A DNA stretch of 33,628 bases, taken from NCBI GenBank assembly GCA_002699105.1, contig PABJ01000166.1, forward strand, positions 1 to 33,628, in the 5' to 3' direction. Below the pieces are notes generated by a model. That model was not told the origin of the DNA, ran no database searches, and worked only from the letters and a program-made list of their open reading frames with translations. The translations under genes were made by a program, and so were the position numbers. The stretch comes from Ectothiorhodospiraceae bacterium. Its GTDB lineage: Bacteria; Bacteroidota; Ignavibacteria; SZUA-365; GCA-2699105. Each line of letters opens with the position of its first letter. Position 1 is the stretch's first letter. Shown piece by piece: positions 11,947-25,884 of the stretch.

Positions 11947-12441
11947 CTACAGCTGCTTGAACCTCTCGAACGGCTGCTGGCAGGAGTTGCAGTAGTAGAT
12001 CGCCCGGCAGAGGGTGGGGCCGAAGGGCGAGGTGATTTCGGTATCCATGCTTTCGCACCAGGGGCAGGGGATCTTCGTGAACATCTCCCATTCCACGTTC
12101 CCGCCGTGCTTGGCCGGCGGCGCCAGCCCGATCGTTTTCATCTTCTCCCGCGCAGAATCCGCCATGCGGTCGGTGCTCCAGGGCTTGCGGAGAACGGTGA
12201 CCTTGGCTTCGTAACCTGCTTCGGTCAGTTTCTCCCTGATGTCGCTTTTCATGACGTCGAGAGCCGGACAGCCCGAAAACGTCGGGATCATGCCGATACC
12301 GACGCGGCCGTCCGAGATCGCTACAGAATCGATCACTCCAAGCTCGACGAGGGAAACGTTCGGTATCTCCGGATCCATCACCTCGTCGAGGAGTTCCCAG
12401 ATGTGCTTTTCTGCTGTTGCTGTCGTTGCTTCGGTACTCAT
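11947..12441 (-). CDS. paaD: PaaD: phenylacetyl-CoA epoxidase maturation/auxiliary subunit
   Basis: 164 residues, the usual length (PaaD is also called PaaJ). The N-terminal ~90 residues are a MIP18/DUF59 domain with the TFSGCPA motif (residues 54-60), a fold involved in Fe-S or metal-centre assembly. The C-terminus has a zinc-type cluster of C126, C129, C145, C151 and C154 (CPWC, then CNSC). PaaD is needed for an active PaaABC epoxidase in vivo, probably for maturation of its iron centres or those of its reductase. It is the last gene of the operon, 78 bp after paaC. The reductase gene paaE does not follow: the next gene downstream is the BNR protein. Confidence 0.95.
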   Translation of the reverse strand: MSTEATTATAEKHIWELLDEVMDPEIPNVSLVELGVIDSVAISDGRVGIGMIPTFSGCPALDVMKSDIREKLTEAGYEAKVTVLRKPWSTDRMADSAREKMKTIGLAPPAKHGGNVEWEMFTKIPCPWCESMDTEITSPFGPTLCRAIYYCNSCQQPFERFKQL

Positions 12442-12519
12442 TCACTCTTCTCCATACTCAAAATCGTGTTGACCGCCTGCGTCCATCCAGAGCGCCGGCG
12501 GTCTCCACTACAAACGTTC

Positions 12520-13305
12520 TCACCAAACGGCTTCCGGGTCTTCGCGCTGGAGCGTCTTCATCGCGTCCAGGATATTCATCATGTGCTCGGTATGCTCGCC
12601 CTTACGTCCGCCGTTCTTCGGCACGATCTCGGTCTTCCAGTCGCTGCCGACCTTCACTGCCGGGACGTGCAGTCCATAGCTTGCGAGCATCGGGCAAAGC
12701 TTGTTGAGCCAGCGCTGCTTGATCTCGCTTTCGGATATGGCAATCTTCGCATCGACGAGATCGCTCTCTCCTTCGTAGGATTCGAACAGCCCAAGCGCAT
12801 AGGCGAACGCTTCATCCAGTGCAGCCTGCATACGGATTTTGCTTTCTTCCGTACCGCCGCTCAGCCGCTGCACCATGGAGGTATTATGTACCCAATGGTA
12901 GCGCTCTTCCTGGAGGATCTTCGTCGCCACATCGCGGAGGGCTTCATGGGAGGATTCTTTGAGTGCCTGCAGCCGCTCGGACTTTGCGCCGTCATAGAGG
13001 AACTGCCGCATCATCGTGAAGCCGTAATCGCCGCGCGGCAGCTCGGTGAAGATCGCGTTCTTGTACTCGCCGACCTCGCGCTTGAAGGCCAGGTCATCGG
13101 GGTCTTCGCCCGTCATATCCTCGATGATGGAATAATACGCCAGCGCGTGGCCGAGCTCATCCTGCGCCATGCTGGAGCACGCGATATCCTCTTCGATGAT
13201 TGGACCGAGCCCTGTCCATTCCGAGAGCCTGTGGCCCAGGATAAAATCGTCATCGCCCAGGCAGAGGAGCATGGTACGGAGTGCGGATTGTTGCTGGTCG
13301 GTCAT
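12520..13305 (-). CDS. paaC: PaaC: structural subunit of phenylacetyl-CoA 1,2-epoxidase
   Basis: 261 residues, ferritin-like fold. LGHRLSEWTG near residue 23 and the DELGH (49-53) and EERYH (133-137) segments mark the family. In the enzyme PaaA carries the catalytic di-iron site, and PaaC is its partner that forms the PaaAC core. The start codon directly follows the paaB stop codon (TAA then ATG with no gap), indicating translational coupling. Confidence 0.95.
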   Translation of the reverse strand: MTDQQQSALRTMLLCLGDDDFILGHRLSEWTGLGPIIEEDIACSSMAQDELGHALAYYSIIEDMTGEDPDDLAFKREVGEYKNAIFTELPRGDYGFTMMRQFLYDGAKSERLQALKESSHEALRDVATKILQEERYHWVHNTSMVQRLSGGTEESKIRMQAALDEAFAYALGLFESYEGESDLVDAKIAISESEIKQRWLNKLCPMLASYGLHVPAVKVGSDWKTEIVPKNGGRKGEHTEHMMNILDAMKTLQREDPEAVW

Positions 13306-13674
13306 TTAGTCGTCCTCCTCTACGGATGCGGGTTTGTTGAGTTTGAAGCCTGCGGCCAGGCGGTACTTGCGGTCGAATGCAGGTGCGAACATATCGGCGT
13401 CTTGGTACGAGGTTGCATGCACATCATCCTGCTTGACGATCCACAGATTCACACACGGCTGGCGGCGGATGAAGCTTTCCTTCGCCATCAGCAGTGCCAT
13501 TTCCGGATCGGGTGCATGGACAGAGCCTACCCATTCGTGGCAATCGCCGCGCTTCTCCTGGACGAACACTTCCCACTCGGGCCATTGCGTATCGTTTTCA
13601 TCGAACGGTGCCTGCGCTTTCTCTATCGCCTCGTCGATGCGTTGGTGGTACGGGTTGAATTTGTATTCGGGCAT
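13306..13674 (-). CDS. paaB: PaaB: phenylacetyl-CoA epoxidase bridging subunit with N-terminal extension
   Basis: 122 residues from the ATG at 13674, which follows a strong AAGGAG. The conserved core starts at about residue 42 (WPEWEVFVQEKRG) and includes the GSVHAPDPEMALLMAKE segment. E. coli PaaB is about 95 residues and begins almost directly at this core, so this protein has about 30-40 extra N-terminal residues (EYKFNPYHQRIDEAIEKAQ). PaaB bridges PaaAC heterodimers in the complex. The gene lies 10 bp after paaA, whose stop codon overlaps the Shine-Dalgarno, and abuts paaC. Confidence 0.94.
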   Translation of the reverse strand: MPEYKFNPYHQRIDEAIEKAQAPFDENDTQWPEWEVFVQEKRGDCHEWVGSVHAPDPEMALLMAKESFIRRQPCVNLWIVKQDDVHATSYQDADMFAPAFDRKYRLAAGFKLNKPASVEEDD

Positions 13675-13684
13675 TCCTTTCTCC

Positions 13685-14614
13685 TTAGGCCATCTTTCCT
13701 TCTTCCACAAACCGTTCCAGCGCTTCGCGCACCCAGCGCCCTTCGTCGTGGGCAAGCCGGCGCACGGCAATGCGTTCCTTGTTCATCGGGCCGTTCCCGC
13801 GAATAACGCGCTTGAATTCGTCCCAATCAGGCTCGGTGAAGAGCCATTCGCCCTTCTCCTCATCGTACCGCAATTCCGGATCGGGGATCACGAGTCCGAA
13901 TGCGCGGATTTTCGGAACAAACTTGCCGAGGAATTCCTGGCGCAGCTCGTCGTTCGATTTGATCTTCACCTTCCAGCGCATAAGCTGTGCCGAGTGGACG
14001 GAGTCCTTATCGCGCGGACCGAAGAACATCATGATCGGCCACCACCAGCGGTTCAGTGCGTCCTGCACGAGGTCGCGCTGATTCTTTGTTCCGGCCATCA
14101 TCTCGCAAATCGCATCGTAGCCCTGCTTGAGATGGAAGCCTTCTTCGTAGCAGATGCGCTCCATGGCGCGGGCATAGGGACCGTAGGACCCGAGGAGCAG
14201 CTTCGTCTGGTTCACGATGGCAGCCCCGTCGATAAGCCAGCCGATGATAGCAACGTCCGCCCAGGTCTCCGCCGGGTAGTTGAACACATTGCTGTACGTG
14301 GCGCGCCCCATCAACAGATCGTTGATCATCTCCTCGCGCGATACGCCCAGCGTCTCGGCGGCTTTGTAGAGCATCTGTCCGTGACCGACCTCGTCCTGCA
14401 CTTTGGCAATGAGCGCCATCTTGCGCTTGAAGTTCGGAGCATACGGAATCCACGTTCCCTCGGGCAGCGCACCCACGATCTCGCTATGCGCATGCTGTGA
14501 TATCATACGGATGAGGTTTTTGCGGTAGTCCTCCGGCATCCAGTCGCCGGGCTCCACCTTATCGCCACGGTTTACCCGCGCCTCAAATTCCTGCAGTTTG
14601 GCTTCTTCGGTCAT
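13685..14614 (-). CDS. paaA: PaaA: catalytic subunit of phenylacetyl-CoA 1,2-epoxidase
   Basis: 309 residues from the ATG at 14614 (AAGGAT upstream); an in-frame ATG at 14653 would run into tetR and is unlikely. It is a ferritin-like di-iron oxygenase. Candidate ligands are E45 (HAHSEIVG), E75 and H78 (DEVGH), and E158 and H161 (EEGFH). It uses O2 and electrons to make the ring-1,2-epoxide of phenylacetyl-CoA, the key step of aerobic phenylacetate and, indirectly, phenylalanine, styrene and ethylbenzene breakdown. The gene follows tetR by 7 bp and heads paaABCD. The later pathway genes paaG, paaZ, paaJ, paaH, paaK and paaE are not in the window. Confidence 0.96.
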
Positions 14615-14621
14615 ACTGTAT

Positions 14622-15245
14622 CTATCCTTTTGTTGAAACGATTTCTTGTTCAATTTCTTTGCGAGCCGGCGTGCCGTTCACAAGTGCGGCAATCAGAAAG
14701 TCGGCGTACATCGAGCCGACCTCCCCAGCTTTCAATCCGCCGCCCGGACGGTACCACGTGTAGATGGCATTCAGCGATGAAAGCAGCATGATAGAGGCAT
14801 ACTTGGCGTTCTTCACGCTGAACGCTCCTTGGCGTATCCCGCGCTGAATTACTGCACGGAACTTGCCTTCGTAGGTATCGCGCCGCTGGCGGACCTTCCT
14901 TCTGCGTTCTTCGCTTAGGAACTTCCATTCATGAAAATAGATCGTCGCGCTTTCGATGTTATCGGTAATCACCGATACATGCGCCACAATCGCCCGGCGC
15001 AATGCGTCGACCGGCGACGACTTGTCTTCGAGCTCCGGCACGACGCGTTCACGGAACGCATCCGCAACCTCCATGACCATATCCCAGAGCAATTCTTCCT
15101 TCCCGCTCACATGAGCGTACATGCTTGCGCCCTTGATGCCGACGGCATCAGCGATATCGCGAACCGACGTGGCATAGTAGCCGCGTTCGCTGAAGAGTGC
15201 CCGCGCCGCCTGGTAGATGGTATGTTTCGTGCCGTTTTGTTCCAT
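14622..15245 (-). CDS. TetR-family regulator of the paa operon (PaaR-like)
   Basis: 207 residues. The TetR_N HTH lies at ~8-55 ([20 protein letters not shown], then [14 protein letters not shown]), followed by an all-helical ligand domain of the usual length. It is the first gene of the paa operon, 7 bp before paaA, and a perfect palindrome sits at the predicted start site 25 bp upstream of its ATG. Known PaaR proteins repress paa genes and release DNA on binding phenylacetyl-CoA; that ligand is inferred here from context. Autorepression with the whole operon is the simplest model. No strong Shine-Dalgarno is visible. Confidence 0.88.
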
Positions 15246-16889: not shown

Positions 16890-17641
16890 TCAAGTGTCTG
16901 CTTCAGATATGTTAGAGGAGCGTGTTGCTGCGCGCTTTTGCGGCAGAAGCCACCAAGGCGTGCCGGGGTATTGGTGGTGCTCCCAGTGGTATCCAAAGTG
17001 ATAGCATGTAAGAAAGGACCAAAGCACGGAGTATTCGTTACTGCGCGCATGGTGAGCGTCTTCGAATGATTCTACCTCCCCGCGGTGCGGCAGATACGTG
17101 CCGAAGTAGAATAGCTGGAATGAGCTCACAATCGGGGGAAGCGCCCAGAAGAGCGCGATATTCAATGCCGATAAGCCGACGATGTGTTCGAGCACCTGAA
17201 ATATGAGCGCCAGACCAATGAGCTGGAATATAGACATGTATTCCCGCATAAAAGAGAAATACCATGCTGGGAAGGAACGGTGCTCGCCATCGTGGTAATC
17301 CGGGTCTTTGGACGAGGCGGGGTGATCGTGATGCTGCCAGTGTTTTCGGATCGTCTTCCGAAAGCTGAACAGCGCAAAGCAAATTAGTGCGACCGTGCCT
17401 ACGAGGTTGTTTACGATTTTTTTTTTCGCGGGTAGACTGTCCCGTGCATTGCATCGTGGGCTGTTATAAACAGACCTGTATATAACTGTGTAATGACCGC
17501 AAACAACACGATATACAGCGGGATGAATTCCTCAGTGAGAGGGACAGTCAATCCCGTAACCACTGCACCAGCCCATAGCGTCAGAACAAGAAGCGCTATC
17601 GGTAAACCGCGGTTCGATATGTATGCTATGCGATCGCTCAC
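16890..17641 (-). pseudogene. crtW: CrtW-type carotenoid 4-ketolase, frameshifted in an A10 tract
   Basis: The 5' part starts at a GTG (17641), one base after the cruF stop, and reads to TAA at 17411, ending TVYPRKKKS. The 3' part continues in another frame from about 17416 to TGA at 16890. Joined at the ten-base A run (minus strand; 17426-17417), they give about 250 residues, full CrtW length. The joined protein has the His motifs of this membrane fatty-acid-desaturase-like di-iron family: HDAMH, HWQHH, YFGTYLPHR and HFGYHWEHHQYP. CrtW adds the 4-keto group to a beta-ionone ring. Adding one A or removing two restores the frame, so this may be a true lesion, phase variation, transcriptional slippage or a sequencing error. 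All conserved residues beyond the shift are intact, which argues for recent or non-genuine disruption. Confidence 0.85.
17417..17426 (-). repeat. A10 homopolymer tract inside crtW
   Basis: Ten consecutive T on the plus strand (A on the coding strand) at the exact place where the crtW frame breaks. Runs of this length are prone to replication and RNA-polymerase slippage. Confidence 0.95.
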
Positions 17642-17642
17642 G

Positions 17643-18320
17643 TTATGCAAGTTGTGACGACATGAAGAAATATATAATCTGTGCTGCGTATGCATGCAGC
17701 GCGAACTCCGGGATCGGCCGTTTGAAGAGAGCGAGCGCTTCACCAGCCATCGTGAATGCAAGCCCAAGAACGAACCACATGATATAATTCTGCATCGGGA
17801 CAATGCCCTCCGCCCAGTCCCAATAGCCGAGCGCCATAGCGGCGGGTTCCATCAGCAGATCAAACAACACCATCAGGACGGTTGCCGTGAGCGGGGTCAT
17901 CCACCGGTTTGCTCTTCGCCGTTCAGGGATGAATCGCTGTGCAATCGACACCGATGCTAGCGCCGTACCCAGCCAGGCGAACCCAATCGCCAATGGCACA
18001 CCCGCTATTTGTAGTGTCAACGTATCGCCGTACCCGTACGTTCCGAATAACAGGCCGCTAGCCACACCATACCCTTCGACTGCCATGCTAAGAACAATCA
18101 CCGCCAGCGACCATGCGAAAAACCTCATTTGATTCATATTCTCCTGCTTCACGTATGCAGTATAGGCATACCATGCAATCGCGATATTTAACCCGATAAT
18201 AAGCGGGGTTGCCATTGCTGTCATAAGCTCGGTAAACAGGCCGAGGATATTCCACAGACCTCCTGCAATGAGAAGGATGTACACTATTATTACCGGGACG
18301 TGCTGACGGATGTTATGCAT
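17643..18320 (-). CDS. cruF: CruF-like carotenoid 1',2'-hydratase
   Basis: 225 residues from the ATG at 18320, which overlaps the previous stop by 8 bp; an in-frame ATG at 18359 would add 13 polar residues and a 47-bp overlap. The protein is nearly all membrane, with about seven helices, and matches the CruF/DUF422 family: FGTYGYGDTLTLQIAGVPLA and the FDLLMEPAAMALGYWDW-type acidic motif followed by PMQNYIMWF. CruF hydrates the psi-end of gamma-carotene-type molecules to give a 1'-hydroxyl, the attachment point for the sugar added by CruC-type enzymes. Its place between the glycosyltransferase and ketolase genes fits that order. Confidence 0.85.
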   Translation of the reverse strand: MHNIRQHVPVIIVYILLIAGGLWNILGLFTELMTAMATPLIIGLNIAIAWYAYTAYVKQENMNQMRFFAWSLAVIVLSMAVEGYGVASGLLFGTYGYGDTLTLQIAGVPLAIGFAWLGTALASVSIAQRFIPERRRANRWMTPLTATVLMVLFDLLMEPAAMALGYWDWAEGIVPMQNYIMWFVLGLAFTMAGEALALFKRPIPEFALHAYAAQIIYFFMSSQLA

Positions 18321-19455
18321 GGCGAGATGTCGGGATGGTTCGTTCTTTCCAGATGACACTGCCCTGGTATGTTTTCACGATGGAGCGGATACCCATACCG
18401 ATGAGCACCATAATGCCAACCGGATGAAGCACTGCCCCGAGAACAACAGGGTGCTTATATACAACCGCAACAGCGACCCGCAGCGCGATATTCGCAGCTA
18501 CCAGCATAAGAGCATACTCCATAACTCCCGGCACAGCAACCAACGCGTACGGAAGTATGAACGCAGCAAACAGCGCTGCAGATCCGGCAGCGAATATAAT
18601 CACATTGCTGCCGGCTATTGCGAATAGATTCTTAGTAAATCCTTCAACGACTTCCGCTGCGTTCTTGTACATCCGGCAGTATACGGCACCTGTCCCGGCA
18701 GTTGTCAGGACTTTTACTCCTCGCCGCTTGGCCACGCGGCTAAGCTCTATATCCTCGACGATGTTGTTCCGGACAGATTCGTGTCCGCCGATGCTGTTGT
18801 ATGCATTGCGCGTAAATGCTATCCATTGCCCGTTCGCACCGGCTACAGAGGGTGAGCGCAGCTTATATACTAACGGAAGGGGCAAAAGGCAATATAGCAG
18901 CATATCCACCAATGGAACGACCAGCCGTTCCATGAAGCTCACAGTTACTTGCTGACTGAATGCGGAGATCATTCCGGCATCGGTCCCATTGAGCCATGCC
19001 ACCGTATGTGAGACTGCATCCGGATCATGGTATGTGTCTGCGTCCGTGAAGAGCAGGATATCGCCTTGCGCTTCTTCGCCAAGCTGCGCACAGGCCCAGG
19101 CTTTGCCATACCACCCATCAGGAAGGGGTTTCCCGTCATATAGTTGAAGCCGTTTATCCTGGTCAGCATACGATCGTACGATTTCTGCTGTATTATCCGT
19201 TGATTGATCGTTCAACACTGTTATAGAAAGATTCGGATACGTTTGCTTCATCAGCGATTCAATGCACGCCCCTATATTCCCTTCTTCATTCCTCGCGGGG
19301 ATGAGGATGCTTACCTCTGGGAACTCCGACGGTTGCCCATCGGGAGGTTTCCTCAACCTGGGAGCTGCAACAATATTATATAAGGTGATCGCAGCAATCG
19401 GTACAAATGCCAAAGCGGAGATCAAAGCGAGTATTTCTGCGGTTGATAGGTTCAT
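18313..19455 (-). CDS. cruC: GT2-family carotenoid glycosyltransferase (CruC/CrtQ-like)
   Basis: 380 residues. An N-terminal membrane helix (~6-30) precedes a GT-A domain with PARNEE (53-58), ND at 82-83, DAD at 138-140, the acceptor-loop GWYGKAWACAQ (114-124) and an ED pair in VEDIELSR; three or four hydrophobic segments close the C-terminus. This layout is shared by chlorobactene glucosyltransferase CruC and staphyloxanthin CrtQ. Here it would glucosylate the 1'-hydroxyl made by CruF. It overlaps the acyltransferase gene by ATGA (4 bp) upstream and cruF by 8 bp downstream. The exact sugar is inferred. Confidence 0.82.
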   Translation of the reverse strand: MNLSTAEILALISALAFVPIAAITLYNIVAAPRLRKPPDGQPSEFPEVSILIPARNEEGNIGACIESLMKQTYPNLSITVLNDQSTDNTAEIVRSYADQDKRLQLYDGKPLPDGWYGKAWACAQLGEEAQGDILLFTDADTYHDPDAVSHTVAWLNGTDAGMISAFSQQVTVSFMERLVVPLVDMLLYCLLPLPLVYKLRSPSVAGANGQWIAFTRNAYNSIGGHESVRNNIVEDIELSRVAKRRGVKVLTTAGTGAVYCRMYKNAAEVVEGFTKNLFAIAGSNVIIFAAGSAALFAAFILPYALVAVPGVMEYALMLVAANIALRVAVAVVYKHPVVLGAVLHPVGIMVLIGMGIRSIVKTYQGSVIWKERTIPTSRHA

Positions 19456-20171
19456 TGCTGGTACTTACCGCGCATTTTATCCAGCCTGTCATTAACCGAA
19501 ACAGACCCAGCCATGATATCCTCTCCCGTTTCGCCGCTCGCTATACGATCGAGAAGCTCTTCGAGTAGTTTTGTTTCGTCCGATTCAAGTTGCTCGGATG
19601 CTATATGATCGCCTGGGCTGTAATGCCGCGGTTCACCGAACAGGCAGTAACAGCTGGGTTTCTGATCTTGCTGGAACTCACATCGCATAGCAAGCGGCAG
19701 GATCGTTACAGGCGTTGTAATCGAATCGCACACCCGTTCCAGGCCTTTTTTGTAGCCAAGTGGACGCGCATTCCAGGGGAGTAGCTCCCCCTGCGGGAAG
19801 TAGCACACCAGTCGGCTACCTGGAGATTCGTCAAGCTGAGTGCTTGTGTAGTGAATCGATTCAATAATCTTCTTGGGCTTCTCCGGATCGATGCTGTATG
19901 CGCATATCCTCCGGAAGAACGAGTATTTCCGCAGCTGCCTCTCTAGCATCATTATATAAGGTTTGCGCTTAAAGATGCGTTCATTCAGCAGCAGAACGAA
20001 GAAACCGTCCCACCACGTGCTGTGATTCGGCAAGAGGAATAGATTCGTGTCAGTGCTGCATTCCGGAACAGGACCTAAAACGGCAATCCGCCGAAAGCTT
20101 CGACGGATAAGCCAATGTAGGTATGGGTAGAATATCCATTCTGCCCATCTCGTATGCCGGGCTTCGATCAT
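19452..20171 (-). CDS. cruD: PlsC-type acyltransferase, likely carotenoid-glycoside acyltransferase (CruD-like)
   Basis: 239 residues with the lysophospholipid acyltransferase signature: NHSTWWD (H50 and D55 as the HX4D catalytic pair) and FPQGE (125-129). Relatives esterify glycerol phosphates, but position in the middle of a carotenoid operon, overlapped by the glycosyltransferase gene, points to acylation of the carotenoid-bound sugar as done by CruD in green sulfur bacteria. A general phospholipid role cannot be excluded from sequence. It starts 14 bp after crtB. The symbol is by analogy. Confidence 0.75.
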   Translation of the reverse strand: MIEARHTRWAEWIFYPYLHWLIRRSFRRIAVLGPVPECSTDTNLFLLPNHSTWWDGFFVLLLNERIFKRKPYIMMLERQLRKYSFFRRICAYSIDPEKPKKIIESIHYTSTQLDESPGSRLVCYFPQGELLPWNARPLGYKKGLERVCDSITTPVTILPLAMRCEFQQDQKPSCYCLFGEPRHYSPGDHIASEQLESDETKLLEELLDRIASGETGEDIMAGSVSVNDRLDKMRGKYQQ

Positions 20172-20185
20172 TACTTACTCATGTA

Positions 20186-21109
20186 TTAAAGCGCATTCCT
20201 TGGCATAAGCGGCGATACTCTGCCGGGCTCCGGCCTGAACTTTGTCATAAGATATTCCCGCAGCATAATTGCCACCTTTTGCTTCCCGGAGACATACACA
20301 CGCTCTGGAAACGGATTATAACCAGCATCCTCTATCTTGTACAAGATACCACGGTATATATTGCTTGCAGCATAAATGGCAAAACGAGATTCACGTTTTA
20401 ACATTGCAATGCCGGTGTTTGCTTTCTCGAAGTACTGATGCGCTTCTTCGGTTTTCGTTCGCATATACGCATCCATTGCCGGCGTGAATCGTTCATGCAA
20501 TATATCGCTCTCGCGAATTCCGTTCGCATCCAACTCCGCAAGCGGGAGGTATATCCTGCCGCGATCCTTGTCCTCTTTCACATCGCGAAGGATGTTGGTG
20601 AGCTGCATCGCCGTACCGAGTTCCTTCGCATATCCAAACGCTTCATTGGTATTATAACCAAGGACATGGGTCATCATCAAACCAACAGTTGAAGCGACAC
20701 GGTAGCAAAACAGCTCCAGCTCCTCAAACGTCTCATAGCGGGTATGCAGCAAGTCCATGCGCACCCCTTCGATAAGATCGAGGGGATACTGTTTTGGTAT
20801 ATCGTACTCATTCGCCGCGACTATGAAAGGCCCTAGTACCGGATGCTCCGATTCCCCGGTCCGGTATGCAGTCTCCAATTCGGCACGCAACGCATCGAGC
20901 TCATACATAAGTTCGTCCTGCGACCTGCTGCGCGGGTTATCCACAATGTTATCTGCATAGCGGCAAAAGCCGTACAGCGCGTATGTAGCATTCCTTCGGT
21001 CGGCCGGTAGAAGCTGGGTTGAAAAATAGAAGCTCTTCGAATGACGTTTCGTGGAACGTCTCACGTATTCGAATTCGTCCTTATAGTGCTGTTTCATTTG
21101 TATATTCAT
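20186..21109 (-). CDS. crtB: Phytoene synthase
   Basis: 307 residues from the ATG at 21109, spaced well from AGGAA; another ATG at 21118 touches that AGGAA directly and is less likely. It has the trans-isoprenyl squalene/phytoene synthase fold with two Asp-rich motifs, DNIVD (53-57) after YALYGFCRYA, and DVKEDKDRG in the second half (preceded by AMQLTNILR). It condenses two geranylgeranyl-PP into phytoene, the first committed step. It lies 16 bp after crtI and 14 bp before the acyltransferase gene. No GGPP synthase gene is in the window. Confidence 0.95.
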   Translation of the reverse strand: MNIQMKQHYKDEFEYVRRSTKRHSKSFYFSTQLLPADRRNATYALYGFCRYADNIVDNPRSRSQDELMYELDALRAELETAYRTGESEHPVLGPFIVAANEYDIPKQYPLDLIEGVRMDLLHTRYETFEELELFCYRVASTVGLMMTHVLGYNTNEAFGYAKELGTAMQLTNILRDVKEDKDRGRIYLPLAELDANGIRESDILHERFTPAMDAYMRTKTEEAHQYFEKANTGIAMLKRESRFAIYAASNIYRGILYKIEDAGYNPFPERVYVSGKQKVAIMLREYLMTKFRPEPGRVSPLMPRNAL

Positions 21110-21125
21110 AGGTATCATTTCCTGG

Positions 21126-22628
21126 CTATGCGTGTCCGTTCCCGTTCAATCCAAAATCCTCTTTTATGCATTGTTCCGTCGCTTCCGCGGTGAGCATCAC
21201 CCCCGGTACGCCAGCCCCAGGATGAGTGCTGGCACCGACGATATACATTCCTTCCATGCCTTCGCTTCTGTTCTTCGGCCTGAATGAAGCCGTCTGCGTG
21301 AATCGGGGTTCAACACCCCAGGCGCTGCCCAAATAGTTATTGCGTGTGTCCCGAAAGTCTTCGGGAGTGAACAATTCCATGACTTCGATATTATCGCGCA
21401 AATCATCCAGGCCCCACTCTTCAAGGAAGGTGATAATTTTATCAGCATACGCTTGTTTGTGTTCTGTCCAATCGTAACCATTTGCGAGATTAGGCACCGG
21501 AACAAGCACATACATACTTTCGCATCCCGGCGGCGCCATGTCGGGGTCGGTCCGTGTCGGCGCATGGAGGTACATGCTGAAATCATCCGCAAGGACCTTC
21601 CTGTCGAATATATCTTTCACAAGTTCCTTGTACCGCTTGGACAGAATAAGCGTATGGTGCAGCAATTGCGGATATTGCTTCTTCACTCCGAGATATATAA
21701 GAAAAGTGCTCATGCCGTAGTTCATGTTCTTGACTCGGCTGGGGCTCCACTTCCTGGGGACATTCTCAGGCACCAAATTCATATACGTATGCGCGAAATG
21801 CGCATTTGAAACTACGGCATCTGCATGGTGGTTTTCCCCGTTCACACGGACGCCGTTTGCTTTACGGTTCTCGATTAGAATCTGCTCGACCGCTGCATTT
21901 GTTGTAATCGCCCCTCCAATATCAACGAATAGCTTTTCGAGAGCTTGCACGAGACTATACATGCCGCCTTTCGTGAACCACACTCCCCCGTCCTTCTCCA
22001 GATACGGGATCATCAGATACACGGCCGGTGACCGGAACGGGCTCCCGCCTATAAACAACGGGTGGAAAGAAAATGCGAACCTGTTCCGTTCGTCCTCGAA
22101 GTATTTTGCCACTACGTTGTATGTCGGCTGAAGCGCCTTCAGGCGCATTGCCTTCGGGAGAAACTTCAGCAGAGTACTTGTATCGAATGGCCGACCGCCC
22201 AAGCCATCCTTGATTACAGCCGTATGCAATTGCTCGACGAGCTTCATAAAGTCATCGTACGCAGCTGCGTCCTTTTCACTGAATGCCGCCATACTCTTCT
22301 TCATTGCCTCACCGTCACCGGTGTAATCCAGCATCGATCCATCATGGTAGTATATCCTGTAGAATGGATCCAACGGTATGAGCGACAGGTAGTCTTCCAT
22401 TCTTCGGCCTGCTGACGCGAAAATATCCTGAATAATATCAGGCGCTGTAATCAGCGATGGGCCAAGATCGAATGTATATCCGTTCTTCTTCATTTGGTAT
22501 GCGTGCCCGCCAACCTTCGCATTCTTCTCGAAGATCGTCGTTTCGAAACCGAGCGCCTGGAGACGTATGGCCATCGAAAGCCCTCCGAATCCTGCACCTA
22601 TAACTATCGCTTTCCGTTTCTCACTCAT
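21126..22628 (-). CDS. crtI: Phytoene desaturase
   Basis: 500 residues. An N-terminal FAD-binding Rossmann motif (IVIGAGFGGLSMAIRL) and the C-terminal signature GASTHPGAGVPGVMLTAE define the CrtI family, as does FDLGPSLITAPDII near residue 53. It converts phytoene to lycopene by successive dehydrogenation at the membrane. Between this and the neighbouring paralog, this one is assigned the phytoene-desaturase role because it adjoins crtB and carries the more typical CrtI features; the assignment between the two is inference. It is 13 bp after the crtD-like gene. Confidence 0.9.
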   Translation of the reverse strand: MSEKRKAIVIGAGFGGLSMAIRLQALGFETTIFEKNAKVGGHAYQMKKNGYTFDLGPSLITAPDIIQDIFASAGRRMEDYLSLIPLDPFYRIYYHDGSMLDYTGDGEAMKKSMAAFSEKDAAAYDDFMKLVEQLHTAVIKDGLGGRPFDTSTLLKFLPKAMRLKALQPTYNVVAKYFEDERNRFAFSFHPLFIGGSPFRSPAVYLMIPYLEKDGGVWFTKGGMYSLVQALEKLFVDIGGAITTNAAVEQILIENRKANGVRVNGENHHADAVVSNAHFAHTYMNLVPENVPRKWSPSRVKNMNYGMSTFLIYLGVKKQYPQLLHHTLILSKRYKELVKDIFDRKVLADDFSMYLHAPTRTDPDMAPPGCESMYVLVPVPNLANGYDWTEHKQAYADKIITFLEEWGLDDLRDNIEVMELFTPEDFRDTRNNYLGSAWGVEPRFTQTASFRPKNRSEGMEGMYIVGASTHPGAGVPGVMLTAEATEQCIKEDFGLNGNGHA

Positions 22629-22641
22629 CGTGTCATGACAT

Positions 22642-24135
22642 TCATTGTGATGTTGTATACTGATTATCTTTGACGGCTTCCTTTTGGAGAAGCTCTGCGG
22701 TTATCTTTCCCGATAGCATCACGAGCGGTACGCCGCCGCCCGGATGAGTCGATCCGCCAACGTAGTACAATCCCTTGACGCTTCTACTGCGGTTCGCAGG
22801 CCGCCGGAACGCCGACATCGGGGAATTTGACGACAGTCCGTATATACTGCCGGCGTTTGCATGGTAGCGGGAAGCGAAGTCCTGCGGCGTGATAGTTTGC
22901 TCGTACTCGATTCTCCCGTCTACTTCAATGCCGTGTTTTGCAAGCCGTTCTATGACGGCTTTCTTCGTCCGCTTGATATAGTCGCCCCAGTCCGATGTAT
23001 CGCGGAGGAACGGCATATTGATAAGCACAAACCAGCTCTCCTTCTCGCCGGTATCGATCGAGGGGTCCGTCTTTCCCGGAACGGCTATATAAATAGTAGG
23101 ATCGTCCGCGGGGCGGCCCTCATCGAAGAGCTGCGTAAATTCCGTATGGTAGTTCTCCGAGAAGAATACATTGTGATGCGAGAGACTAGGGAATTTGTCA
23201 TTCATCCCCCATAGGAATACAAGTCCCGAGAGCGACGGCTCCATTTGCTGTAACTTGCGCTCGCTCTCATCAAGCAGGCCGGCGGACGCCGTCACAACAT
23301 CCTGATTGCACACCACAAAATCAGATCGGAAATACTCGCCGTTTACCATGACACCGGTTGCCTGTTTACTCTGTTGTACGATGGATGCAACCTCGGCAGA
23401 AGTTCGAATCTCAATCCCTAATGAATCGGCGAGGTTTGTCAGGGCTTGTACGAGGGAATATACGCCTCCCATGATATAATTTCCACCCATCCCATGCTCG
23501 ACATGCTGAATAATATTGAGCGTTGCGGGAGCTTTGTAAGGACTTGATCCGTTGTACGTGGCAAAACGCGAGAACAACTGCACGATCCTCGGGTCAGAGA
23601 AATACTTGCGTATTCCTGCATACATCGTCCTGAACGGATCGATATCGAGTATATGGAAAAGCGTGCCGAGGTTTTCGCGATCCATGATCTCGGCTGGTTC
23701 ATGTATTGCGCTTTCGAGAAACACCCGATGCGTGCGCTCGTAGATTTTCCTGCTGTATGCTGCAAAGTCCTGGTAATGGCGCGCATCGGTTTCGTTCAGC
23801 GCGGCAAGCCGTTCTTGCATAATCTCAATGTCCGTCGCGGCATCCAGCATGGTTCCATCAGTCCATCGGTAGCGGCACACCGTTTTGAGCGGGACGATCT
23901 CCAGGAAGTCCCGGACGTCCCTCCCTGCGAACGCAAAGAGCTCCTCAATAACATGCGGCATGGTGATAAGCGATGGTCCGCAGTCGAAGTAGAATTCGCC
24001 GTGCTCTACCTTCCTGACCTTCCCGCCAGTGACGTCGTTTTTTTCGAACACTGTCACATCATGGCCCAGGACACGCAGCCGAATCGCTGCGGAAAGCCCG
24101 CCCAGCCCTGCACCGATAACGGCAATTCTAGCCAT
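22642..24135 (-). CDS. crtD: CrtI-family carotenoid desaturase, likely CrtD (1-hydroxycarotenoid 3,4-desaturase)
   Basis: 497 residues from the ATG at 24135, preceded by GGGAGG; an upstream in-frame start (24198) adds residues before the FAD motif and is rejected. It has the dinucleotide motif IAVIGAGLGGLSAAIRL, FDCGPSLITMPHVIEEL and the terminal GGSTHPGGGVPLVMLSGK. It is paralogous to the adjacent crtI. In operons with cruF the second desaturase usually introduces the 3',4' double bond next to the 1'-hydroxyl. It overlaps the cyclase gene by 8 bp. Confidence 0.83.
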   Translation of the reverse strand: MARIAVIGAGLGGLSAAIRLRVLGHDVTVFEKNDVTGGKVRKVEHGEFYFDCGPSLITMPHVIEELFAFAGRDVRDFLEIVPLKTVCRYRWTDGTMLDAATDIEIMQERLAALNETDARHYQDFAAYSRKIYERTHRVFLESAIHEPAEIMDRENLGTLFHILDIDPFRTMYAGIRKYFSDPRIVQLFSRFATYNGSSPYKAPATLNIIQHVEHGMGGNYIMGGVYSLVQALTNLADSLGIEIRTSAEVASIVQQSKQATGVMVNGEYFRSDFVVCNQDVVTASAGLLDESERKLQQMEPSLSGLVFLWGMNDKFPSLSHHNVFFSENYHTEFTQLFDEGRPADDPTIYIAVPGKTDPSIDTGEKESWFVLINMPFLRDTSDWGDYIKRTKKAVIERLAKHGIEVDGRIEYEQTITPQDFASRYHANAGSIYGLSSNSPMSAFRRPANRSRSVKGLYYVGGSTHPGGGVPLVMLSGKITAELLQKEAVKDNQYTTSQ

Positions 24136-24862
24136 GCTGCACCCTCCCCATGAAACGCTGATACAACACAACTCCGCCGAGGAGCAGGGCAAAACCATAG
24201 ATAAAATCTTCGACCGGTATTGTGATGATACGGAATCCCAACTGGTATTCTTCGCCGTACAACACGACAGGGCGAGCGGTTAAGTAACCGTTAAAGATCA
24301 GAATCAGACCTGCGACCATCAGTGTAAAGAGATACGCGGTTGCGCGCTGGAAGATATGCGTCCGAAGGACTATATCCAGCAGGGCTGTAAGACCGAGCGA
24401 AATGAGAGCCAATCCGGTGTATTCCAGTCCGGTGCTGAATACCCACCCGCCGAACGGTACAAGCAAGGGAAGCGCCATTTGCACACCCCGAAGGAACGGT
24501 TTCCCTGGTACATCGTTTTTCGCGGCGAAGAACATCTCCCATGTGAAAATACACGCGTATGGAACAGTGAGGAAGAACAGCCACTCTCCGAGAGGCAGTC
24601 CTGCTATATGAAATCCCAGCGTGTATGCATCGTTGAACCACCAGTGCCTGCCGGTGACCAGGATATCCCAAGGAACAAACACCGCTGCCATAAGTGCAAG
24701 CGCAGCAAGGGCTTTTGGCGCTTTCTCGGCAAAGTTTGCGCCCCTTGTAAACGTCAGGTACACGGGTCCCGCTGCTACGATGATGTTAAATATGAGGTAT
24801 TCTGCACTCACGCCGGAAAAAGAGCCGTTCGGTTGATAATAGATGCTTGCCTGAAAACTCAC
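24128..24862 (-). CDS. crtYcd: Fused heterodimer-type lycopene cyclase (CrtYc-CrtYd)
   Basis: 244 residues starting with GTG at 24862; no earlier start fits. Seven or so membrane helices form two lycopene-cyclase domains. The first has VPWDILVTGRHWWFND and LPLGEWLFFLTVP (E93), the second VVLYGEEYQLGFRI and IPVEDFIYGF (E218, D219). These acid-containing PxE(E/D)-like motifs are the signature of the FAD-independent cyclases known from actinobacteria, archaea and some Bacteroidota such as Salinibacter. It cyclises one or both ends of lycopene; the presence of cruF suggests one end stays open (gamma-carotene type). It is the first gene of the operon, behind a recognisable promoter. Confidence 0.88.
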   Translation of the reverse strand: MSFQASIYYQPNGSFSGVSAEYLIFNIIVAAGPVYLTFTRGANFAEKAPKALAALALMAAVFVPWDILVTGRHWWFNDAYTLGFHIAGLPLGEWLFFLTVPYACIFTWEMFFAAKNDVPGKPFLRGVQMALPLLVPFGGWVFSTGLEYTGLALISLGLTALLDIVLRTHIFQRATAYLFTLMVAGLILIFNGYLTARPVVLYGEEYQLGFRIITIPVEDFIYGFALLLGGVVLYQRFMGRVQHG

Positions 24863-25026: not shown

Positions 25027-25884
25027 TTGCGATACCTAAATAGTAAGGAAGCCGCCGAGATACTCGGAGTGAACGTCTCGACGATTAAACGCTGGACGGA
25101 CGAAGGCAAGCTCGAATGCATGAAGACCGCGGGCGGTCACCGGAAATTCCTCCCGGGTCACCTCACCAAATTCCTCGAAGAAAACGAACAGCACGCAGGC
25201 AGCGAAAACGTTTCGTTGCTCTCGAAGGAGCTTGATCCCGATTTGCGGTCGCTGAAGCTTAACGGGCATCTCGGCTCGGCGAAGGACTATTTCATGCAAC
25301 ACGCATTTGCATGCAACCACGATAAGGTCTCGCAGCTCCTGACGCTTCTCTTTGTCAAAGAATACCCTGTCTATCAAATTTATGATGAACTGGTGTCGCC
25401 GACGCTCCATGATGTGGGTGAGCTGTGGAAGGATGGAAGCATTGCCGTTGCCGAGGAACACCTTGCATCCTCGACGATCAGCGATGCGCTTGTGCGATTT
25501 CAAACCGTCACCGACTACCCGCCCAAGGGCGAAGGACGGGCGTTGCTACTGAACATGTCCACCGAGCTGCACACCATTCCGCTAAAGATGCTCCAGCATC
25601 TGCTGGAACTGCGCGGGTTTGCGGTGCTCAGTACGGGTCAGGTGACCCCTTCGGATGATTTTGAACATCTCGTCGTTTCTCTGAAGCCGACCAGGGTGTA
25701 CATCTCCAGCACCTACATCCACAATTGGCACGAAATGCAGCGCGAATTTGAAGAGCTCAGCATTATCGCGAACAGCAACAGGGTCCCTCTGTTCATCGGG
25801 GGTGCGGGATTCGATATCTTGCGCGTTGTACACCCATCGAATACGCAGCGGCTCCTGACGTTCCAGGAGGCGTTCGAAAAGTAA
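25027..25884 (+). CDS. MerR-type regulator with B12-binding domain, CarH/LitR-like
   Basis: 285 residues starting with TTG at 25027, eight bases after AAGGA; the ATG at 25019 is out of frame and closes after seven codons. Residues 1-50 are a MerR HTH (SKEAAEILGVNVSTIKRWTD, then TAGGHRKF). Residues ~85-160 are the B12-binding four-helix cap, with W134-x9-E144-H145, the signature of CarH-type coenzyme-B12 photoreceptors. Residues ~168-280 are the Rossmann B12 domain; the usual DxHxxG is E180-L-H182-T-I-P185, so the lower-ligand His is kept but Asp and Gly are replaced. Residue 135, a His next to the Trp in Thermus CarH as I recall it, is Lys. Known relatives repress carotenoid genes in the dark and let go in light. 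The divergent carotenoid operon supports that role here. Confidence 0.87.
   Translation: MRYLNSKEAAEILGVNVSTIKRWTDEGKLECMKTAGGHRKFLPGHLTKFLEENEQHAGSENVSLLSKELDPDLRSLKLNGHLGSAKDYFMQHAFACNHDKVSQLLTLLFVKEYPVYQIYDELVSPTLHDVGELWKDGSIAVAEEHLASSTISDALVRFQTVTDYPPKGEGRALLLNMSTELHTIPLKMLQHLLELRGFAVLSTGQVTPSDDFEHLVVSLKPTRVYISSTYIHNWHEMQREFEELSIIANSNRVPLFIGGAGFDILRVVHPSNTQRLLTFQEAFEK

Follow-up and report, generated by a model that had tools for sequence, protein, structure and literature searches.

The crtW-like carotenoid ketolase gene described here is split between two reading frames that meet at a run of ten adenines (A10). This raises the question whether the tract switches or tunes the gene, whether it has damaged the gene by accident, or whether the break exists only in the assembly. 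We analyzed the locus within a window of 33,628 nucleotides, the whole stretch of DNA under study, which belongs to a draft genome of 3.22 Mb in 208 contigs that is 74% complete.

A carotenoid gene row ending in a split ketolase gene

The window holds eight carotenoid genes in one orientation on the minus strand. The crtW-like gene is the eighth and thus the last of the row, as an earlier note on this DNA had stated, and a CarH-like regulator gene adjoins the row. The features are:

16890..17641, minus strand: crtW-like gene as a whole, from GTG at 17641 to the stop at 16890, split between two frames
17411..17641, minus strand: crtW-like gene, 5' half, ~75 codons matching the family, HDAMH among them, closed by TAA at 17411-17413
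17417..17426, minus strand: A10 run at the junction of the two crtW frames, exactly ten T on the plus strand
16890..17426, minus strand: crtW-like gene, 3' half, read in the second frame, carrying HWQHH and GYHWEHH and running open until its stop at 16890
17643..18359, minus strand: CruF-like carotenoid hydratase (Caroten_synth), directly upstream of crtW
18313..19455, minus strand: family 2 glycosyltransferase (HpnB/CruG-like)
19452..20171, minus strand: acyltransferase
20186..21118, minus strand: phytoene synthase-type CrtB
21126..22628, minus strand: CrtI-family phytoene desaturase
22642..24198, minus strand: CrtD-like 3,4-desaturase
24128..24862, minus strand: lycopene cyclase (CarR-domain type)
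25027..25884, plus strand: MerR/B12-binding regulator, CarH/LitR-like, divergent from the pigment genes

The GTG start of the crtW-like gene lies one base past the CruF stop. The divergent CarH/LitR-like regulator suggests that the pigment genes are under light control. In seven order-level relatives (L236-L242), crtW is located apart from the other pigment genes, none of which lies within ~9 kb. The class-level relative G197 (L243) carries crtI, crtB, the acyltransferase gene, cruF, and crtW in the same order as the window, so that the position of crtW after cruF is not unique to the window. Phenylacetate-degradation genes are found next to the pigment genes at 11947-15245; their PaaD zinc ribbon and TetR_C_24 domains were confirmed with Pfam, and paaA-C were assigned by inspecting the ORFs. 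Scanning the window for Rfam families and tRNAs yielded no matches.

The two frames meet at ten adenines

The claim that the two crtW frames meet at ten adenines proved exact, with the run located at 17417-17426; the interval 17411-17454, to which the earlier note had assigned the interruption, takes in the run, the stop of the zero frame, and the last part of the HDAMH region. In the zero frame the sequence is ...TAC CCG CGA AAA AAA AAA TCG TAA, with the stop at 17411-17413 (ORF 17411..17803), and the frame after the run is open as far as 16890. Within the run, a slippery heptamer, A_AAA_AAA, lies in the phase of the zero frame, CG[A AAA AAA] AAA TCG TAA. One additional A would give R-K-K-K-I-V-N-N across the junction, and two A fewer would give R-K-K-I-V-N-N. 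The A10 run is the only A/T run of at least 8 in the window.

The read-through protein is CrtW-like and conserved in both halves

The best match of the read-through protein is the NCBIfam family for the beta-carotene ketolase CrtW (NF045690), with 289 bits compared to a curated equivalog cut-off of 350. Relatives from the same order score 310-315 and thus also fall below the cut-off, while two other proteins tested (L139, L121) exceed 350. Because of this score we refer to the protein as CrtW-like; it resembles CrtW in its best family match, its His motifs, and its membrane di-iron superfamily fold, but differs in the lower score and the frameshifted gene. All invariant columns and conserved His motifs are kept, and the protein matches Pfam FA_desaturase with 87.8 bits versus 29.7. 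A PDB sequence search gave no close match. An AlphaFold model built for the A8 reading (pLDDT 89) agrees with the membrane di-iron fold of CrtW; its nearest known folds include SCD1 and AlkB, albeit weakly. The residues of the tract region are modeled as a loop (66-73) followed by the start of a helix (74-89).

Both halves had been described as fully conserved, and our comparison with 104 distinct related proteins bears this out: all 48 positions with a conservation of at least 95% are kept, 15 of 15 before the tract and 33 of 33 after it. The crtW-like gene is thus not decaying; either the lesion is recent, or enough product is made for selection to act on, or the lesion is not real.

Relatives fit a tract of eight adenines

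One A more or two A fewer had been put forward as alternative ways to restore a ketolase of ~250 residues. Both changes do reopen the frame with the His motifs kept, but they are not equivalent when measured against the family. Among 112 related loci, the distance from HDxxH to HxxHH is that of the A8 reading in 98 and one residue shorter in 14, and it corresponds to the A11 reading in none. An independent spacing measure on 91 loci gave the same picture (86 matching A8). Since relatives match A8 and never A11, A8 is the best estimate of the family-like length, and from this comparison the tract looks like an A8 that has grown to A10. It follows from the A8 family length that the likeliest slippage product, whether it arises from an 11-A RNA or from a ribosomal slip by -1, would contain one extra lysine. 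This lysine is present in no relative, which weighs against slippage as the designed route to the enzyme.

Comparison of tract lengths in related genomes had been proposed as a means to detect variation, but no relative shares the tract: none of those checked has a run of more than 7 or a frame break at this site, which makes the tract a private feature of this genome. The relatives are unbroken through the tract region, with 169-199 residues following the HD motif, and 70-odd class-level homologues are intact at the site, except ones split by contig ends. When contigs were scanned for closer relatives, no match exceeded 57% identity, and no other member of the window's family was present among the relatives searched.

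The tract is unlikely to be an assembly error

Under a sequencing or assembly error, the true tract would be A8 (or A11) and the gene an ordinary one. The perfect conservation of both halves would be expected in this case, A8 restores the family spacing exactly, and the genome is a fragmented, incomplete draft. We inspected how other homopolymers behave in this assembly. Pattern searches of the genome counted 89 A/T runs of at least 8, 12 of at least 9, and 2 of at least 10, compared to ~54, ~13, and ~3 expected from base composition (A=T=0.24). With ~3 runs of at least 10 expected, one A10 in the genome is unsurprising in itself; what is notable is its placement in a conserved gene, which it breaks. 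The longer of the two runs is an A12 at C6:112-123 (L051), 111 bases from a contig end and apparently outside genes.

We examined the surroundings of ~75 A/T runs of at least 8 with an open-frame scan, which was used in place of a codon-score scan for frame switches (150 bases) that did not discriminate. About ten runs lie clearly inside genes, and all of these stay in frame. The only other frame break is the programmed -1 frameshift of an IS3 element between orfA and orfB at an A8. In addition, the 21 other genes checked in the window are intact and carry no homopolymer of more than 7. Since other long A/T runs break no genes and the window genes are intact, homopolymers are not generally miscalled. 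A +2 miscall of an A8, which the error would need, is unusual on any sequencing platform. The poly-G contig ends described below may moreover indicate short-read data, with which an A10 is called fairly reliably. We thus regard an error as unlikely, and as less likely than the earlier note had suggested, given that no other examined long A/T run breaks a gene outside the programmed IS3 site.

Several candidates for a second broken gene were discarded in this survey. At L073 the true gene lies on the opposite strand, at L089 and L080 separate genes are present, the genes at L101 and L072 end ahead of the run, L053 consists of intergenic tandem repeats, and L067 is the programmed IS3 element rather than an accidental break. 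The L053 array (L053:1800-2350, C82) has a unit of ~94 bases, each copy having 7, 8, or 9 consecutive T following a GC-rich stretch, and displays natural drift of tract length by +/-1 in this genome. A G14 or G15 stands at the very start or end of four contigs (L224, L225, L231, L232, at the ends of C13, C161, C20, and C155), and two of these ends share an adjacent 65-base repeat. These ends are either a sequencing artefact or real poly-G beside a repeat; they would fit two-colour short-read data, a reading tempered by the shared repeat. Located exactly at contig ends, these four longest poly-G tracts were not taken as genes of a contingency repertoire.

Phase variation and programmed slippage are not supported so far

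The earlier note had also raised the possibility that the cell switches between keto and non-keto carotenoids or makes a programmed mixture of them. Neither is supported so far, as the tract is unshared, no stimulatory structure was found, and a set of similar broken tracts is absent. Under reversible phase variation, high-rate flips of the tract would generate subpopulations with and without ketocarotenoids. As in phase-variable genes, a long simple repeat is located within the reading frame, the A10 is among the two longest A/T runs of the genome, and the gene is otherwise intact and last in its row, so that only the end product would change. However, A/T runs of at least 9 are no more common than base composition predicts, no second gene with a broken tract indicates a repertoire, and no relative has a tract at the site. 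Phase variation hence appears improbable.

Long A/T runs are known to slip, as the earlier note had pointed out (PMC1088944, PMC4256274, PMC3812077). In Thermus thermophilus, slippage of RNA polymerase on an A9 in dnaX generates two protein lengths (PMC1088944), and genes with frames disrupted at slippage-prone A/T runs have been described by Baranov et al. 2005 (PMC1088944). In Citrobacter rodentium tssM, an A11 is rescued by transcriptional slippage that yields mRNAs with 10 to 15 A's (PMC4256274). An A8 repeat in a test gene was the most indel-prone site and was bypassed or tolerated under selection (PMC3812077), while the RNA polymerase of E. coli shows little slippage on A runs of ~8 (PMC6260861). 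Based on these precedents in other bacteria, some leakage from the A10 is to be expected.

The likeness of crtW to each of these cases is partial. In the genes of Baranov et al., as in crtW, a run of at least 9 A interrupts a conserved ORF and slippage would restore the frame, but the restored crtW product would differ in length from all relatives. C. rodentium tssM1 likewise has a stop just past a long A run, an added A that gives full length, and no ribosomal stimulators nearby; there, transcript heterogeneity and the need for both products were shown, whereas the crtW tract is unique to one genome. T. thermophilus dnaX also carries a long A run inside the gene, but there the long product is encoded in frame and the short one arises by slippage.

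Programmed slippage would imply that the A10 is fixed and that slippage by RNA polymerase or the ribosome normally sets the amount of full-length ketolase. As expected for transcriptional slippage, a run of at least 9 A is located at the frame junction and one additional A restores the frame; the dnaX and tssM precedents likewise favor this view. For -1 frameshifting, the in-phase heptamer is present and has a counterpart in the same genome: the IS3-family transposase at C23:1346-1353 (L067), HTH_Tnp_1 followed by rve, joins orfA and orfB by a -1 frameshift on an A8 (CTA AAA AAA ACG) with the same heptamer phase as in crtW. A second IS3-like copy at C45:134-141 was seen only as the same 17-base context. 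The shared motif and phase make a -1 slip plausible here, but in the IS3 family the heptamer is a programmed transposase signal, whereas the crtW relatives lack it. Moreover, the stretch of 87 bases that starts with the tract shows no better folding than shuffled sequences (z = -0.20), inspection upstream of the tract revealed no Shine-Dalgarno-like (AGGAG-like) element, the tract is not conserved, and the spacing that a +1-A or -1 product would have occurs in 0 of the 112 relatives. Taken together, programmed slippage appears quite improbable. Finally, an old pseudogene drifting without function, to which the frameshift could belong, is highly improbable, as there is no second lesion, every conserved position downstream is retained, and when identity to outgroups is compared between the N half and the C half, the ratio (0.86) falls in the range of intact relatives (0.81-0.97).

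A proposed recent length change with leaky rescue

The explanation that we favor, and to which we give an even chance, is that the slippery tract changed length recently and by accident and that the gene is leakily rescued. The ancestral crtW-like coding sequence would have contained an A8 (CGA AAA AAA ATC), and the tract would recently have changed to A10, so that the remainder of the gene is frameshifted in the population that was assembled (the majority). Translation would then mainly give an inactive fragment of ~77 residues. Unassisted slippage on the A10, either by RNA polymerase adding one A or as a -1 ribosomal slip on A_AAA_AAA, would probably yield a small amount of a 250-residue protein, which would carry the extra lysine in the loop after HDxxH and may be active. 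A point against this scenario is that going from A8 to A10 means a net gain of two bases (+2), an event less frequent than a slip by one base; A10 could be reached in one step from A11, but this length is supported by the sequence of no relative. In addition, the perfect conservation, which we take as a sign of recency, could also be explained by selection via efficient slippage or frequent reversion.

It is rather doubtful that the A10 tract is a working dial or switch, through which changes in tract length, or slippage, would determine what fraction of the cells or of the enzyme molecules adds the keto group, on top of CarH-like control. If it were, it would to our knowledge be the first known pigment-tuning tract of this kind; a search of the open literature found no carotenoid example, although this is weak evidence, given its incomplete coverage. 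The crtW A10 case is a good small example of a known phenomenon rather than a shown genetic switch. If the tract is real, it offers a clean case from nature in which to test the tolerance of a frameshift within a long A run, and it warns annotators not to label such genes as simply dead or simply intact.
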